A DNA stretch of 25,831 bases from Pseudomonadota bacterium (GTDB lineage Bacteria > CALINM01): assembly GCA_026415985.1 (NCBI GenBank), contig JAOAGA010000011.1, positions 1 to 25,831 on the forward strand. The letters run 5' to 3'. The notes under the pieces are model-generated. The model had not been told where the DNA came from. It saw only the letters and a program-made list of their open reading frames with translations, and did not search any database. Positions 5,073-25,377 of the stretch are shown here, one piece after another; position 1 is the stretch's first letter, and every line of letters starts with the position of its first letter. Both the position numbers and the translations under genes were made by a program.

Positions 5073-5145
<73 letters not shown>

Positions 5146-10662: not shown

Positions 10663-11043
10663 ATGAAGATAGAGAAAATACTTGTTGCTGAAGATGACAG
10701 CGAGGTAAGGTGGTCTCTTGTTAAGTTTTTAAAAAAGGAAGGTTTTTCTGTATCTGAAGCGAAAGATGGTTTAGAGGCCTCAGCCCTCCTGAGTAAAGAA
10801 AAATTTGATCTTATCATAACAGATTTAAATATGCCCAATTTTTCGGGCGAAGATCTTTTAAAGCTTTGCAATAAAGAAAATATTAACTCAAAATTCATAA
10901 TCATCACTGCCTATGGTGATTGTCAGAGCTTCTGGAAAGCCATGAAGATGGGCGTATATGAGTACCTTAATAAGCCCGTTAGCCTTGATGAGCTCCTTTC
11001 ATTAATAAAAAAGTTAGAGGAAACAGATAATGAAAGAGATTAG
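10663..11043 (+). CDS. Single-domain response regulator (receiver only)
   Basis: A 126-residue stand-alone CheY-like receiver domain with every phosphorylation residue present: acidic pair Asp11/Asp12, phospho-acceptor Asp54 in IITDLNMP, switch Thr82 in ITAYG, and Lys104 in NKPV. There is no output domain; the ORF ends naturally and overlaps the next gene by 14 bases. Such proteins act by binding a partner or by passing phosphate on. Possible partners are the REC-histidine-kinase-like protein at 14479 and the GAF/MCP-like protein at 12507, but the link is only by proximity. It may have its own promoter in the short gap after the antiporter. Confidence 0.92.
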   Translation: MKIEKILVAEDDSEVRWSLVKFLKKEGFSVSEAKDGLEASALLSKEKFDLIITDLNMPNFSGEDLLKLCNKENINSKFIIITAYGDCQSFWKAMKMGVYEYLNKPVSLDELLSLIKKLEETDNERD

Positions 11044-12063: not shown

Positions 12064-12510
12064 ATGAAATTAAATAAAATATTGTGTCCCATCGATTTTT
12101 CTGAGTATTCGGAAAAGGCAGTTTCATATGCCAAGGAACTGGCAAAAACTTTTAATTCGAAGTTGTATATAATGCATGTTATTTATGAACCGGCAGAGTT
12201 TACCGGTTTTTACGTTCCTCATATATCATTTGACAAAATAAAGACCGAGATAAAATCGGGCGCCCAGAAGCTTATGGATGATTTCATAAGTAAAAATCTT
12301 AAAGATTTTAGTAATTATGAGGTAATAGTTACACTTGGTGATCCCGCAGAAGAGATAGTAAAATTTTCCGATGAAAAGGAAATAGATCTCATTGTTATAG
12401 GCAGTCAGGGAAAGAAGGGTTTAGAGAAGGTTGTCTTTGGTAGCACTGCAGAAAAGGTAGTCAAGAGGGCAAACTGCCCCGTTATGTGTATAAAGCCAAG
12501 CAGAGAATGA
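12064..12510 (+). CDS. Universal stress protein, UspA family (ATP-binding type)
   Basis: A 148-residue single-domain Usp protein. The nucleotide-binding signature G-2x-G-9x-G-S is intact at residues 113-127 (GSQG to FGS), so it belongs to the ATP-binding class and not the UspA class that lacks the motif. The start [16 protein letters not shown] is the normal Usp N-terminus. A clear ribosome site (AGGGGG) lies just before the ATG. Usp proteins dimerise in the cytoplasm and modulate stress survival. Adjacent to transport and signalling genes here, a role in stress-linked signalling is plausible but not shown. It overlaps the next gene by 4 bases. Confidence 0.93.
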
Positions 12511-14477
12511 TTAAGATTAGTTTTAAGACGAATCGTGGCAAATATTTATTTGCAGGGGTAGTAGCGGGTATTTGTGCGCCCCTCGGCTGGATAACCATTG
12601 CCCTTCTAACCTTCAAACCCTACAATATAGATTTTGGAGAGCATTTTTTTAATTTTTTCAATAGTAACTATAACTTGTCACTGATTTTTTATTTAAGCAC
12701 CTCAATTATTGTGCTTGGCACACTTGGCTATATCATAGGTTTTAACAGAGATAAGCTACTTCAGCAAAACAGTGAGCTTGAAAAAAATAAACAGGAGATT
12801 CAGACAAGAGAGATAGAATATAAAACAACCCTTGAGAATATCAGGATAAAAACCAACAGGCTTCTTGAGGCTACCAAAAAAATTCAGGAATCTCCTAATA
12901 TTAATGCGGTTCTTCAGGAAGTGGGGAAGTGTGCTCACGAAATACTTGGTTTTGACAGAGTAAATATTCTCCTTGTTAGTGAGGAAAAAGGGATAATATA
13001 CTGTGTTGTTACCTATGGGACGAGAGACCCAAAAGAAAAGATCTGGGTTCCCTTTAATAATGAAGGAGGACTTCTTTTCAGAGCCATTCACGATAACAAG
13101 ACCTATCTGGTAAAAGATATAAATGACTATCCCGATGATTTTCATCTGCATCCACCTTATAGCAATATCGAATCCTTCAGGACAAAATCTTTTTTCTGTC
13201 TCCCCTTCCACAGGTTGGGTAAACCTATAGGGGTAATCAATGTTGATAATAAATATAAGAAAAAGGTTGCATCTGAAGACGAGTTAGCGGTTCTTACGGT
13301 TTTATCACAACAGGTATCTCAGGCAATAACAAATATATATTTTATGGAAAGCATAAACGGTGTTTCAAAGGAGCTTGAAGACACCTTTAAAATGATATTA
13401 AAACAAAAGGAAAAACAAGTAGAGATGTTCAGTAAGTTTAGAGAGACAATTGTTGACATAAATGAAGGTTATAATTTCCTGAATTCTAATATTCATAATC
13501 TTTTTCAGTCTCTTGAAAGGAGTGTCTCCTCAATTGCTCAGATACATTCATCAATAGCAGAAACCTCAGGTGCTCTGAAAAATCTCTACAAATACACGGA
13601 AGAGCTGGCAACTACTGCAATAGAAATGAAAGAGTTGGGTGAAGAAATTGCCACATCAAGTAAGGTTTCAATTGAAAGCAGTATAAAATTAAACAGCAAG
13701 GTTCAGGAAGGAAGTAAAGTAATATCAAATATTTATAGCTTTGCCGACAACGTTAGAAAAACTCTTGATATCTCAAGGTCGCTTTTTGAGAAATATAGAA
13801 ATACCATACAAAGTGTCTATCAGATAGTTCTTACAATTACATCCATTACGGAGCAAACAAATCTTTTGTCTCTTAATGCCTCAATAATAGCCTCACAGGC
13901 GGGTGAGTATGGTAAGCCCTTTGCGGTTGTTGCCAATGAAATTAAATCTCTGTCTGAAAGGACTAAGTTTTCTGCTCAGGAAATAAAAACAATTGTTGAT
14001 CATCTTAAAAGCGAATCTGAAGAGTTTATCGCTAATATAGAGCAGACCTATCTTATGGTAGAAGACGGTATAAAGATTGCCACTAAATCAAATCAGATTT
14101 ACGAAGAGTTAAGGGACCTTTCGGAAAACACAAAGCATCTCAATGAGAAGATTGAAAAGGCGGTATTTGAGCAGTTGTCAGGTGTTACCTATATGACCCA
14201 ATCTATTGAAGAGATAAAGGATTCTACAAAAAAAATAGCATCGGCAGGAGAAGAGCAGGAAAAGGGTAGCAATCAGATAGTTTCTGCCAATGAAGATATT
14301 AAAAACTTAGCTAAAGATGTTCTTTCTGCCAATGACAAGGAGTATGAGGATTTTAAGATAATCTCTGTTATGTTTAAAGATGTGAGCGATTTCATAGAGA
14401 GGATGTTTTTAGAGATAGATTCCAAAAACAAAGAGATAGAGCGCTTAATTGAAGATTTAAAGATATATTTCAAATAA
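12507..14477 (+). CDS. Membrane GAF-domain protein with divergent MCP signalling domain
   Basis: A 656-residue protein with two membrane helices (about 13-36 and 57-79) separated by only 20 residues, so there is no periplasmic sensor. A short coiled coil leads to a GAF domain (about 126-280), and a long helical MCP-type signalling region follows (about 330-610). No HAMP domain is visible between membrane and GAF. The hairpin tip at 446-486 is recognisable ([29 protein letters not shown]) but the canonical NAAIEAARAGE reads [11 protein letters not shown]: the Glu is Ile and the Arg is Gln. Signals are presumably sensed in the cytoplasm by GAF. I prefer ATG 12507, overlapping the Usp stop as ATGA, over an in-frame ATG at 12486. 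The next gene begins 2 bases after its stop. Confidence 0.85.
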
Positions 14478-14478
14478 G

Positions 14479-15582
14479 ATGAGTGAAAATCTTTTTATTA
14501 TTGATGACGATGAAGAGATATTAAATCTTCTTACCCTTGCTCTTTCAAGGTCCGGTTTTAATATTGAAACAGCGAATAATTACGGAGAAGCAATAGCCAA
14601 AATCGATAGAGGATACATACCCGATCTTGTTCTTATGGATTATTATCTGCCCGGTCTTGACGGAATATCTTTAGCTGGTGAGTTCTTGAAAAAGGGGGTT
14701 AAGTCACCGGTTTTTTTGTTTACTGCTGCCGATAGTGATGTTATAAACCTCTCAGACTGTCCTGAAAATGTAATTGATATTATCAGAAAACCCTTTAGTT
14801 TTGAGGAAATAGTTCAAAAACTTAACCAATCTAAAAGATACAATAAACTTTTTCTGGATAAAGAAGAGGTAACTGATAAAAAAAATCAGGTTGTCGATCT
14901 GAATAATGATTTATATACCCAAAAGATTTCGGACATACAGAAGTTCTTAGATATAGTTTCTCACAAAATAAAAAACTCTCTGCAGACAATTACCAATTAT
15001 GTTGAGTTACTAAAGAAGGGTTATATTGACGAAGAAGATAAAGACAGGGTTTTCCAGACTATATTAGATAAGGTATCGCAAATCAAACATGAGCTTGATA
15101 TTCTTAAAAGACCCGCAGAGTTTTATTACGAGGAAGATTTTTCCTTAAAAAATGTTATAAGAACGGTATTATCAGATTTAAAAAAGGATATAAAAGCCAG
15201 AGATCTTTATATAAAGACGGATTTTCAAAAAAATCTACCCCTTTATTATGGCAGAAGAGGTATTTTTGCGGAGTTTTTTTTGGAGTTTTTCGGGAAGATA
15301 GTTAATTGTTCGGAAATGTCAAGCAAGATTCATATTTCTTTAAGTCAGGATAATGATGAGTATTTGATAAATGTTATTCAAAGCGAGGTCTCACAGACTT
15401 GCAGGGATTTATATAATTATTTCGAGTTAAGCTTGAAAGACGATAAAGAAATCAGGTTTGCCAAAGCCTTTGTTGATTTTAAAGATCTTGGTTGCAGAAT
15501 AATAATTGATAAAGATAATGAAGGCCGTGGTATTTATAAGATAATTATACCTAAGAGTTCTAATGTTTCAGATAGAGATTAA
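14479..15582 (+). CDS. Receiver-histidine kinase-like protein with degenerate ATPase domain
   Basis: A 367-residue cytoplasmic protein. The receiver domain (1-118) is intact: Asp9-Asp11, phospho-acceptor Asp54, Thr82 and Lys104. A linker leads to a DHp-like helical hairpin with an H-box SHKIKNSLQ and His162 at the phospho-site. The remaining part (about 220-360) has the length and end pattern of a HATPase_c domain, finishing RGIYKIIIP. However, the N box (expected Asn residues near FLEFFGKIV) is absent, and no DxGxG or GxGLG box is seen. It probably cannot bind ATP and may work as a phosphotransfer protein, in the style of Spo0B or ChpT, or as a docking dimer. It starts 2 bases after the MCP-like gene and overlaps the next gene by 20 bases. 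Confidence 0.8.
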   Translation: MSENLFIIDDDEEILNLLTLALSRSGFNIETANNYGEAIAKIDRGYIPDLVLMDYYLPGLDGISLAGEFLKKGVKSPVFLFTAADSDVINLSDCPENVIDIIRKPFSFEEIVQKLNQSKRYNKLFLDKEEVTDKKNQVVDLNNDLYTQKISDIQKFLDIVSHKIKNSLQTITNYVELLKKGYIDEEDKDRVFQTILDKVSQIKHELDILKRPAEFYYEEDFSLKNVIRTVLSDLKKDIKARDLYIKTDFQKNLPLYYGRRGIFAEFFLEFFGKIVNCSEMSSKIHISLSQDNDEYLINVIQSEVSQTCRDLYNYFELSLKDDKEIRFAKAFVDFKDLGCRIIIDKDNEGRGIYKIIIPKSSNVSDRD

Positions 15583-19293: not shown

Positions 19294-20293
19294 ATATTTT
19301 GAAAAGCTTGAGGATAAAAAGGTTAGCTGTTTTCTCTGCAGACATCACTGTATTATAAAAGAAGACAAAAAGGGTATCTGTGGTGTTAGAAAGAACATAA
19401 ACGGTTCCCTTTACAGCCTCGTTTATGAGAGGGTAATAGCAAAAAACGTTGATCCTATAGAAAAAAAACCCCTCTTTCATTTTCTCCCCTCAACAAAATC
19501 TTATTCAATCGCAACTGTCGGATGTAATTTCAGATGCTTCCATTGTCAGAATTACGAAATATCTCAGATGCCAAGGGAAGAGGATACAATTATGGGGAGC
19601 ATAATCCCTGTTGAAGATATTGTTGATTCAGCTATTTATTATGATTGCAAGAGCATATCCTATACCTACACTGAGCCGACAATCTTTTATGAGTATGCCT
19701 ATGATGTGGCTGTTTTAGCTAAACAGAAAGGATTAAAAAATGTTTTTGTAACTAACGGTTATATTGAAAAAAAGCCTTTGGAGGATATTAAACCCTATCT
19801 TGACGGTGCAAATGTTGATTTAAAGGGCTTCAGCGAGGATTTCTATAAGAAAGTTTGTGGAGCAAGCCTCAAAGGTGTTTTGGAAAGTCTTATAAATTAT
19901 AAAAAATTAGATATCTGGCTTGAGATAACCACATTGATAATACCCACCTATAATGATAAAGAAGAGGAGTTAAAGGGAGTTGCAAGATTTATCAAGGCTG
20001 AGTTAGGAGAAGAAACTCCATGGCATGTAACCGCCTTTTATCCCACCTATAAACTTACCGATGCTCCTCCCACTCCCGTAAAAACACTCAAGATGGCAAG
20101 AGAGATTGGTTTTTCTGAAGGATTAAAGTATGTCTATACGGGAAATATCCCCGGTGAAGAAGGAGAGTCAACCTACTGTCCCCATTGCAGGAAAAAAATC
20201 ATTGAGAGGGTGGGCTTTAGGGTAAGTAAGTTAGATATTATAAATGGAAGTTGTAAATTCTGTAATAGAGAGATAGCGGGTGTATGGAGTTAG
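19280..20293 (+). CDS. Radical SAM enzyme of the AmmeMemoRadiSam group (PflA-like)
   Basis: A 337-residue radical SAM protein with the canonical CxxxCxxC motif GCNFRCFHCQNY (Cys82, Cys86, Cys89). An N-terminal Cys cluster (Cys17, Cys20, Cys24, Cys34) and a C-terminal Cys-rich segment (CPHCRKK and CKFCNRE) flank the core and could bind zinc or a further iron-sulphur cluster. Sequence features such as SYTYTEPTIFYEYAYD, NVFVTNGYI and the C-terminal YTGNIPGEEGESTYCP are typical of the AmmeMemoRadiSam system radical SAM enzyme. Its usual partners AMMECR1 and Memo are not in this window. It overlaps the AI-2E gene by 14 bases and the endonuclease V gene by 10 bases. The substrate is unknown. Confidence 0.88.
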   Translation: MKEAKYFEKLEDKKVSCFLCRHHCIIKEDKKGICGVRKNINGSLYSLVYERVIAKNVDPIEKKPLFHFLPSTKSYSIATVGCNFRCFHCQNYEISQMPREEDTIMGSIIPVEDIVDSAIYYDCKSISYTYTEPTIFYEYAYDVAVLAKQKGLKNVFVTNGYIEKKPLEDIKPYLDGANVDLKGFSEDFYKKVCGASLKGVLESLINYKKLDIWLEITTLIIPTYNDKEEELKGVARFIKAELGEETPWHVTAFYPTYKLTDAPPTPVKTLKMAREIGFSEGLKYVYTGNIPGEEGESTYCPHCRKKIIERVGFRVSKLDIINGSCKFCNREIAGVWS

Positions 20294-20924
20294 ATAGGCT
20301 GAAAAGGGCTCAGGAAGACTTAAAAAGTCTTGTCAGGATAACACCATTTAACTTTTTTTCAGGTAATGTAGCGGGTGTTGATTCATCATATATGTTAAAA
20401 AATGATGAGATAATATCTACAGCGGTAGTCTATAACACCATTGAAAAAAAGATTATAGAAAGATCTTACTGTAAAAAAAAATTTCTTTTCCCTACATCCC
20501 CGGTTTTCTCTCCTTTCGTGAGATTGACTCCACCTTAACCGCCATTATGAAACTTAAAAGTGATTTTAGCCTCATAATCGCAGATGGTCAGGGTATAGCC
20601 CATCCGAGAAGATTTGGCATAGCTTCCCATTTAGGTGTTTTGTTAAATATCCCTGCTATCGGATGTGCAAAAAAAAGACTTGTAGGCAAGTTTCAAATGC
20701 CCGAAAATATATCAGGGGCTTTTACCTATTTGTATGACGGGGAAGAGAAGATAGGGGCGGTATTAAGAACAAAGGTTAATGTTAAACCCCTTTTTATTTC
20801 GCCGGGTCATCTTGTAGATATTGAAAGTTCTGTCAGAATAATTATATCTTTGATCGGAAAATACAGACTGCCCGAACCGGTAAGAGAAGCCCATTTATAT
20901 GGTAACAAGTTAAGGGTTGAATAG
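20284..20924 (+). pseudogene. nfi: Endonuclease V, split by a frameshift at a run of nine A's
   Basis: Endonuclease V cleaves near deaminated bases (inosine) in DNA or RNA. Frame 1 from ATG 20284 encodes the N-terminus with the catalytic Asp33 (AGVDSS) and runs to a stop at 20536-20538. The other frame, open from 20475 to 20924, holds the wedge motif PYIPGFLSFRE (20490-20522) with the catalytic Glu, IIADGQGIAHPRRFG with the catalytic Asp (20583-20585), AKKRLVGKF, and PLFISPGH. Moving one base back at the A-run 20473-20481 joins them into a 213-residue protein, close to the family's usual 220-230. Every catalytic residue is present once. It could be a recent mutation, a sequencing error in the homopolymer, or a gene expressed by slippage. 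The ATG 20547 is inside the second part and would lose PYIP and Glu. Confidence 0.85.
20473..20481 (+). other. A9 slippery tract inside the endonuclease V gene
   Basis: Nine consecutive A's (read TGT AAA AAA AAA in the upstream frame) sit exactly where the endonuclease V reading frame must step back by one base. The tract contains the -1 ribosomal slip heptamer A AAA AAA in the correct phase. It is also long enough for RNA polymerase slippage, which is known on A or T runs of nine or more. Ten A's in the DNA, or in part of the transcripts, would restore one continuous frame. Confidence 0.6.
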
Positions 20925-21734: not shown

Positions 21735-22574
21735 ATGATTTACTGTAATGCAAAACTCAATCTTTATTTAAAGGTAGTAGGAAAACGGGAAGACGGGTAT
21801 CATCTCCTTAATATGATCAATGTTCCTATTAGCATTTATGACAGAATGGAAATAGATATAAAAGAAGGAGAGGGAAGATTAATACAAAAATTTGAGCCAC
21901 CTGTTAATTGCATACCAGAAAAAACAACAATCTACAGGGCCTTTCAGATTATGAAAAAATTTCTTCCTGAAGATATAAATATAGTGGTTAATATTGAAAA
22001 GGTTATACCAGAGGGCTCAGGATTAGGTGGAGGAAGTAGCGATAGTGCCTTTTTTATTAAAAAATTAGCTGAAGTCTTTAAAATTGAGATAGATAATAAC
22101 TTAATTTTTAAGATTGCTAATCAAGTGGGTGCAGATGTGCCCTTTTTTATTTTTAATAAACCAGCCTATCTCGAAGGAATAGGAGAAATGGTTTATCCCT
22201 ATAAATCATTTCCTGCTCTTAATTTTTTAGTTATAAAGCCTGATTTTTCAATAAATACCGGATGGGCTTACTCTAATGTAAGGGATTTTTCTTTGCCAAA
22301 TGATACTTTTAAACAAGACTATATAAAAGCAGAAGATATTTTCAGATATATGGAAAATGATCTTGAAAAAATTGCCGAGGGAAAATTTTTTGAGATTAAA
22401 AAAATAAAAAATTTTTTGTATAATAATGATGCAAAAAAAGCAATGATGACCGGCAGTGGCTCGGCGGTATTTGGTATTTTTGAAAAAGAAGATGTTATTA
22501 AAGATGTTTTTTTAGAAGCAAAAAAGACATTCCCGGAGTATAAAATCTTTAAAGCTCATACAATTGGGGCGTAG
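21735..22574 (+). CDS. ispE: 4-diphosphocytidyl-2-C-methyl-D-erythritol kinase
   Basis: IspE is the GHMP kinase of the MEP isoprenoid pathway, phosphorylating CDP-methylerythritol. The 279-residue product has the catalytic Lys7 in CNAKLNLYLKV, GKREDGYH, the ATP-binding glycine loop PEGSGLGGGSSDS (92-104), the catalytic Asp134 in GADVPFF, and the third GHMP motif MMTGSGSAVFG. I chose ATG 21735 because it puts the substrate-binding NAKLNLYLK at its usual position; upstream GTG 21726 and TTG 21720 would lie within rlpA. The last ten bases, including the TAG stop at 22572-22574, are also the first ten bases of the mature tRNA-Gln. Confidence 0.96.
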   Translation: MIYCNAKLNLYLKVVGKREDGYHLLNMINVPISIYDRMEIDIKEGEGRLIQKFEPPVNCIPEKTTIYRAFQIMKKFLPEDINIVVNIEKVIPEGSGLGGGSSDSAFFIKKLAEVFKIEIDNNLIFKIANQVGADVPFFIFNKPAYLEGIGEMVYPYKSFPALNFLVIKPDFSINTGWAYSNVRDFSLPNDTFKQDYIKAEDIFRYMENDLEKIAEGKFFEIKKIKNFLYNNDAKKAMMTGSGSAVFGIFEKEDVIKDVFLEAKKTFPEYKIFKAHTIGA

Positions 22575-22641
22575 GCGAATTGGTAAAGCCACCAGACTTT
22601 GACTCTGGAGTTTGGAGGTTCGATGCCTCCCGCCCCAGCCA
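22565..22641 (+). tRNA. tRNA-Gln, anticodon TTG
   Basis: The plus strand folds into a full cloverleaf. The acceptor TGGGGCG (22565-22571) pairs with CGCCCCA (22631-22637) over 7 bp. The D stem is GGC/GCC; the anticodon stem CCAGA/TCTGG encloses CTTTGAC with anticodon TTG. The T stem GGAGG/CCTCC encloses TTCGATG. The discriminator is G, usual for glutamine tRNA, and the 3' CCA is encoded (22639-22641). The first pair is U1-A72, the pair known to help bacterial GatCAB recognise tRNA-Gln. Its 5' end overlaps the 3' end of ispE by 10 bases, so it is probably made from the same transcript. The mscS gene follows 44 bases later. Confidence 0.97.
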
Positions 22642-24735: not shown

Positions 24736-25377
24736 ATGGAGTACGATAAAAAGCTTAATATCTTAATCATAGATGACCACCCCCTTTTCAGAAAGGGGAT
24801 GATTTCAATCCTTGAAAATTCTGGCATTGCGGAAAAGATACTTGAAGCAGGAAACTTAAAAACAGCATGTGAGTTAATAGATACCGCAAATATAGATTTA
24901 GTAACCCTTGATCTTAATCTTCCAGAAGAGGACGGTATAAAGTTATTAAACAGGTATGTGGAAAGGCATTTTAAAATAATTGTGGTCACAACATATAATA
25001 GCTCTTTTTTGTTGCAGGAATTATTAAGAAGGGGTGCAGATGGTTATATCAAGAAGGAAAATTTATATGAAAATTTAATAGAAGCAATTAACTGTGTTCT
25101 TAATGGCCATGTTTATGTCAATGATGATAACTCTGTTAAAAAGGATGCTCTCAGTCTTGAGGATAAAGCCTCAAGGTATTATTGTTTAACAAATGCAGAA
25201 AAGGAAGTGTTCAAATTACTTGCCCAGGGCAAAAACGCAAAGGAAATCGCCCTTGTTCTTGGGAAAAGTTATAAAACCGTAGAAAACCAAAAAAATGCAA
25301 TAATTTCAAAAATGCAGATAAAGTCTGATTTGGAATTATTTAAAATAGCGATCAGGCTTAATCTGACTAATTTATGA
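24736..25377 (+). CDS. NarL/FixJ-type response regulator
   Basis: A 213-residue transcription regulator. Receiver domain 1-125 has Asp13/Asp14, phospho-acceptor Asp59 (VTLDLNLP), Thr85 and Lys106. A LuxR-type helix-turn-helix follows at about 150-210, with LTNAEKEVFKLLAQGKNAKEIA and the recognition-helix stretch SYKTVENQKNAIISKM. It has its own promoter and overlaps the probable sensor kinase gene by 4 bases, a standard two-component pair. Target genes and signal cannot be told from the window. Confidence 0.95.
   Translation: MEYDKKLNILIIDDHPLFRKGMISILENSGIAEKILEAGNLKTACELIDTANIDLVTLDLNLPEEDGIKLLNRYVERHFKIIVVTTYNSSFLLQELLRRGADGYIKKENLYENLIEAINCVLNGHVYVNDDNSVKKDALSLEDKASRYYCLTNAEKEVFKLLAQGKNAKEIALVLGKSYKTVENQKNAIISKMQIKSDLELFKIAIRLNLTNL

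Follow-up and report, generated by a model that had tools for sequence, protein, structure and literature searches.

Here, we report a 367-residue protein in which an intact receiver (REC) is joined to a histidine-bearing DHp hairpin and to a CA domain that has lost its ATP-binding residues, encoded in a window of 25,831 nucleotides, that is, the whole stretch of DNA that was analysed. On balance we favour the reading that a former REC-controlled histidine kinase (HK) gave up ATP binding and now acts as a single-chain phosphorelay intermediate, its phosphotransfer being something that we infer from the sequences of three orthologs. Given that His162 and Asp54 are kept and ATP binding is lost, phosphotransfer between receivers would be the simplest function. 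Conversion of a kinase into a phosphotransferase is known in a few lineages (Spo0B, ChpT, PhyT), and the present gene looks like a further case, one derived from a REC-HK with the donor receiver kept in the same chain. The features of the gene and of the two neighbours discussed below are collected in Table 1.

Table 1. Location of the REC-DHp gene, its domains and two neighbouring genes in the window
Feature	Position	Strand	Basis
Whole gene, 367 aa, REC-linker-DHp-degenerate CA	14479..15582	+	ORF, Pfam, orthologs
Receiver domain, residues 3-118, acid pocket D9/D10, D54, T82, K104	14485..14832	+	Pfam and ortholog alignment
Linker, about residues 119-143, poorly conserved	14833..14907	+	Low model confidence
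DHp helical hairpin, residues 144-209, phosphoacceptor His162	14908..15105	+	Pfam, alignment, model
His162 codon	14962-14964	+	In DHp hairpin
Degenerate CA domain (Bergerat fold predicted), residues 216-358, G1/G2 motifs lost	15124..15552	+	Profile alignment and model
Lys273 codon, in place of the N-box Asn	15295-15297	+	Profile alignment
Upstream neighbour, GAF and MCP-signalling protein, two-TM (by eye)	12486..14477	+	Kept in three genomes
Lone receiver	10663..11043	+	Same block in all three genomes

The initial annotation was accurate in the extent and frame of the gene, in its numbering of Asp54 and His162, and in describing an intact receiver followed by a His in a good H-box. Response_reg was matched at residues 6-115 (Pfam, protein scan, E=1.3e-17) and every residue of the acid pocket is present. 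HisKA was matched at residues 154-204 (E=7.6e-6) with 26.3 bits against a gathering score of 26.9 in the protein scan, while the genome scan gave 28.7 bits at the same locus, above the cut-off. The DHp motif around the phosphoacceptor reads SH-K-IKNSLQTI-NY-ELL-KGYI. The His is invariant in the three orthologs, the Asn at H+4 (HxIKN) is kept, and the residue directly after the His is Lys, Ala or Gly, in no case acidic.

Two full-length orthologs, from another genus of the same family, share 41% (G002:C95) and 37% (G001:C10) identity with the window protein; their contigs, JAOABK010000003.1 and CALINM010000010.1, both belong to MAGs, and neither a sample of about 290 genomes nor a scan of GTDB r220 yielded any further ortholog. 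When a DHp-CA profile was run against 290 genomes, the three orthologs scored E <= 1e-118 and the rest were generic kinases with E >= 1.9e-16. Since two orthologs that are 37-41% identical to the window protein have its domain order and show its losses too, the architecture is not a product of chance. Within these three sequences, which represent one family-level clade, conservation over 24 residues is highest from the Ser before His162 onward (residues 161-184, 19/24 invariant), a degree of invariance matched in any 24-residue window by 11 of 20000 shuffles. A second conserved stretch at 216-262 (26/47, including FQKNLPLYxGxR) lies outside the ATP boxes; the G1-lid-G2 stretch (303-332) has four invariant positions in 30 and the strands at 281-302 have two in 22. 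By domain, identity to the orthologs was 37-43% for REC, 17-23% for the linker, 53-55% for DHp and 34-39% for CA.

The claim that N, G1 and G2 boxes are not found in the C-terminal domain was borne out as far as the boxes themselves are concerned, but the domain is a degenerate CA domain and not one unrelated to kinases, as follows from its alignment with CA domains over the whole length and from the predicted fold. HATPase_c was absent from the 367-residue protein even at E<=10 (Pfam, HMMER). In a profile alignment, canonical kinases carry the N-box Asn, a DxG motif at G1 and GxGLGL at G2; in the window protein Lys273 stands in place of the Asn, and the Asp/Gly of G1 and the Gly of G2 are replaced as well. 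All three orthologs have Lys at the Asn position and lack both the G1 and the G2 motif; of the three, the G002 ortholog alone retains a DG pair close to G1, which is absent from the G001 ortholog and the window protein. The three-row DHp-CA profile aligned near full length with canonical kinases of other genomes (E about 1e-14 to 1e-18) and, in the PDB, with Geobacillus KinB (E=1.5e-8), and AtoS was matched by one ortholog across residues 165-368, so that residues 216-358 descend from a CA domain. Searched against the PDB as a single sequence, the C-terminal part had chance-level matches only, the best being the Mx1 GTPase.

The structure prediction proposed in the initial annotation gave an AlphaFold2 model with a REC domain, a helical hairpin at 144-209 and the helices and strands in CA order, built on a thin alignment of three sequences (mean pLDDT 67 for the whole protein and 75 for DHp-CA). 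The predicted CA domain was superimposed on solved CA domains with Z about 15-17 and rmsd 2-3 Å over about 140 residues. The CA (Bergerat) fold is predicted to be retained, then, in a domain whose ATP-box residues are lost in the aligned sequences; such models speak to fold and not to activity. The best full-length fold match was the REC-HK LvrB (E=8e-16), with a low overall TM (0.27) that reflects a differing domain arrangement. DivL and RetS structures were among the good CA fold matches; among the matches printed, which were mostly ordinary kinases, Spo0B, ChpT and PhyT did not appear, and this is uninformative either way.

By architecture and fold, the nearest relatives are REC-histidine kinases such as LvrB, with which the protein shares a REC-DHp-CA order, an N-terminal REC joined to DHp and a length of about 370 residues. 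LvrB has a working ATP site and an autokinase activity switched on by phosphorylation of REC (PMC13269768), whereas the present protein has lost the ATP boxes, and its linker between REC and DHp is poorly conserved and modelled with low confidence. A phosphoacceptor His stands in a HisKA-type DHp as in HisKA-HATPase_c kinases, but their N, G1 and G2 boxes are missing, and by the models and motifs tested the protein is neither a canonical kinase nor a member of the Spo0B, ChpT, PhyT-type or Hpt families. The likeness to Spo0B and ChpT that had been proposed fits the probable way of working and not family membership. In the profile comparison suggested along with it, SPOB_a matched one of the three orthologs at 14.1 bits (E=0.035), below the cut-off of 28.1, SPOB_ab matched none of the three, and HPTransfase (PF10090, the ChpT family) gave no match at E<=10 with the HMMER filters on. 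The HRxxN motif of the PhyT type is absent, the sequence being H-(K/A/G)-I-K-N, HisKA_2 scored 17.1 bits against a cut-off of 22.3, and monomeric Hpt (PF01627) had no match at the locus in the genome scan. We therefore class it as a degenerate REC-HK, one whose mode of action is probably that of a DHp-type phosphotransferase.

Spo0B, ChpT and PhyT are degenerated histidine kinases whose phosphotransferase function has been established experimentally, and each resembles the present protein in part. In Bacillus subtilis the receiver Spo0F is followed by Spo0B, a dimeric His phosphotransferase from a degenerate HK core (PMC6136694), as two separate proteins where the window has a single chain. 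ChpT, with DHp and a degenerate CA-like domain in the CckA-ChpT-CtrA relay (PMC9981736), is alphaproteobacterial and has no receiver. In Sphingomonas PhyT/PhyP, an HK with a degenerate ATPase takes phosphate from a single-domain receiver and hands it to a response regulator, but is membrane-anchored, of the HRxxN type (HWE/HisKA_2) and served by a separate donor receiver, SdrG (PMC5898713). No description of a fusion of REC with a degenerate HK of this kind was found in the literature searched, which was covered in part.

We infer a course of events, partners and direction included, in which an upstream kinase encoded elsewhere, a hybrid HK or CheA, would phosphorylate Asp54; the phosphoryl group would then pass to His162 of the protein's own dimeric DHp, across the long linker, or to that of a partner subunit, and from there to the response regulator at the end of the chain, for which the lone receiver at 10663 is a possibility. 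One polypeptide would thereby combine the two middle steps of a relay of the Spo0F-Spo0B type. That three species retain receiver and H-box intact but not the ATP boxes, with the strongest conservation at the His motif and little in G1-lid-G2, argues for such a relay, and lends good support to the earlier statement that the protein is not a kinase and carries a phosphorylatable His and Asp; the possible role of a hub found no support. The switch position of beta5 in the fused receiver (I101) holds no Tyr or Phe (I/T/I across the three orthologs); in the lone receiver the position is Tyr in each of the three genomes. According to one study this aromatic position is variable in a relay-type group of receivers and a fixed Tyr in an output-type group, and the difference weakly suggests that the fused receiver may be a relay receiver and the lone one an output receiver, by a criterion that is not absolute, as a few other receivers of the genome also have no aromatic residue there. 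Against a relay, none of the other nine genes compared in the block evolves as fast as this one (37-41% identity, against 50-73%). The acidic residue that Spo0B and ChpT keep after the His is, moreover, replaced by Lys, Ala or Gly; a non-acidic residue here is no proof of lost kinase activity, since another kinase of the genome, with intact boxes (L051), also has His-Lys.

A His so placed can also be kept for phosphatase activity or reverse transfer. The DHp might dephosphorylate a partner response regulator, or take phosphate back from it, with the fused REC as controller or final sink. The retained Asn in HxIKN is at the position linked to phosphatase activity in HisKA proteins, and PhyP/PhyT was initially taken for a phosphatase and a negative regulator. 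The acidic residue of the usual phosphatase motif is missing, however, and so is the nucleotide-bound CA domain that serves many HisKA phosphatases as a cofactor; we hold a phosphatase or phosphate drain to be improbable. Somewhat easier to entertain, although still unlikely in our view, is a pseudokinase modulator like RetS or DivL, HK cores not used as ordinary kinases, in which a dead core would pair with or bind another HK and alter its activity, gated by REC, with His162 free of phosphate in vivo. A CA fold kept without ATP residues and the good fold matches to DivL and RetS would suit it, as would a CA-less ChrS variant that raised output via its paralogue without using its own His. The His and the positions that directly follow it are the most conserved part of the protein, though, and a protein acting purely as a scaffold could do without them; in DivL the His is replaced. 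RetS and DivL act on other kinases by contact and are not known to pass phosphate on by way of an N-terminal REC in the same chain.

Continued kinase activity and decay are both very improbable. Domain order, length, the LvrB fold match and the predicted CA fold would agree with an LvrB-like, REC-controlled kinase that binds ATP through non-canonical residues and autophosphorylates, but none of the three orthologs has an unaltered N, G1 or G2 box, the Asn at the metal-binding position having become Lys, and the model does not give the linker the continuous signalling helix reported for kinases of the LvrB type. The rapid evolution of the gene might indicate a REC-HK drifting towards loss; yet open frame, position and full length have been kept in two genera, and conservation is uneven, rising steeply at the H-box and the FQKNLPLY segment.

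The relay reading can be set against the other kinases of these genomes. HATPase_c adjoins 23 of the 24 HisKA matches in the window genome and 30 of 31 in G002, the exception in each case being the REC-DHp gene (coordinates compared by eye; G001 is too fragmented to count). Both G001 and G002 also encode an REC-HK of roughly 350 residues with complete boxes (HEVRN, NIINNS, DTGIGI, GTGLGL), 26% identical to the REC-DHp orthologs along almost all of its length (E down to 2e-24) and with a shorter linker; the loss of the ATP boxes is thus specific to the REC-DHp gene, and the intact REC-HK offers a natural comparison of which changes accompany loss of kinase activity. A hybrid HK gene lies directly before the intact REC-HK (L139 566-5705, L140 2-3496, L141), an arrangement like Leptospira LvrA/LvrB; in the window genome the contig that carries the pair ends within the second gene. 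These genomes encode several hybrid HKs, and all Hpt matches of G001 and G002 fall inside CheA-like frames (the window genome has one further Hpt, at C122), which would leave a vacancy for a phosphotransferase; the argument is a weak one, as hybrid kinases can use their receivers without Hpt.

The gene lies in a block common to the three genomes (gatA-gatB-[lone REC]-galT-Usp-GAF/MCP-[REC-DHp gene]-FAD protein-HD protein-AI-2E protein), to which the window adds a gene for a Kef-type transporter, placed after gatB and before the lone receiver. One base (14478), and not two as first annotated, separates the stop codon of the MCP-like gene (14475-14477) from the ATG at 14479. The GAF/MCP protein is a candidate input to the REC-DHp protein, and the lone receiver, earlier suggested to form a phosphorelay branch together with this protein, is by its conserved synteny a candidate phosphate acceptor. 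We would tentatively, and with considerable doubt, extend this to a one-piece Spo0F-Spo0B-like module in which the fused REC passes phosphate to the DHp His within the dimer and on to the co-conserved lone receiver; if true, it would tie an unusual MCP-like sensor to a relay in a little-sampled bacterial lineage. The idea that the MCP needs the REC-DHp protein for want of chemotaxis genes was rejected, CheA and CheW being present. The 12-residue signalling tip of the MCP-like protein is altered in all three genomes (12486-14477; L031 6408-8375; L032 11277-13244), the other MCPs read out from these genomes having the tip LNA(A/T)IEAARAGE; the E and R that are changed correspond to trimer-contact residues of Tsr. 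Another possible partner is the NarL-type response regulator encoded at 24736-25377, towards the end of the window, which has no adjoining histidine kinase gene inside the window. Endonuclease V (nfi, 20284-20924) is split by a frameshift, with its N-terminal part in another frame, and is an intact ORF of 216 residues in the sister genomes; the split reflects either an assembly error or a pseudogene. Two tRNA genes (Rfam) are located at 5073-5145 (-) and 22565-22638 (+).
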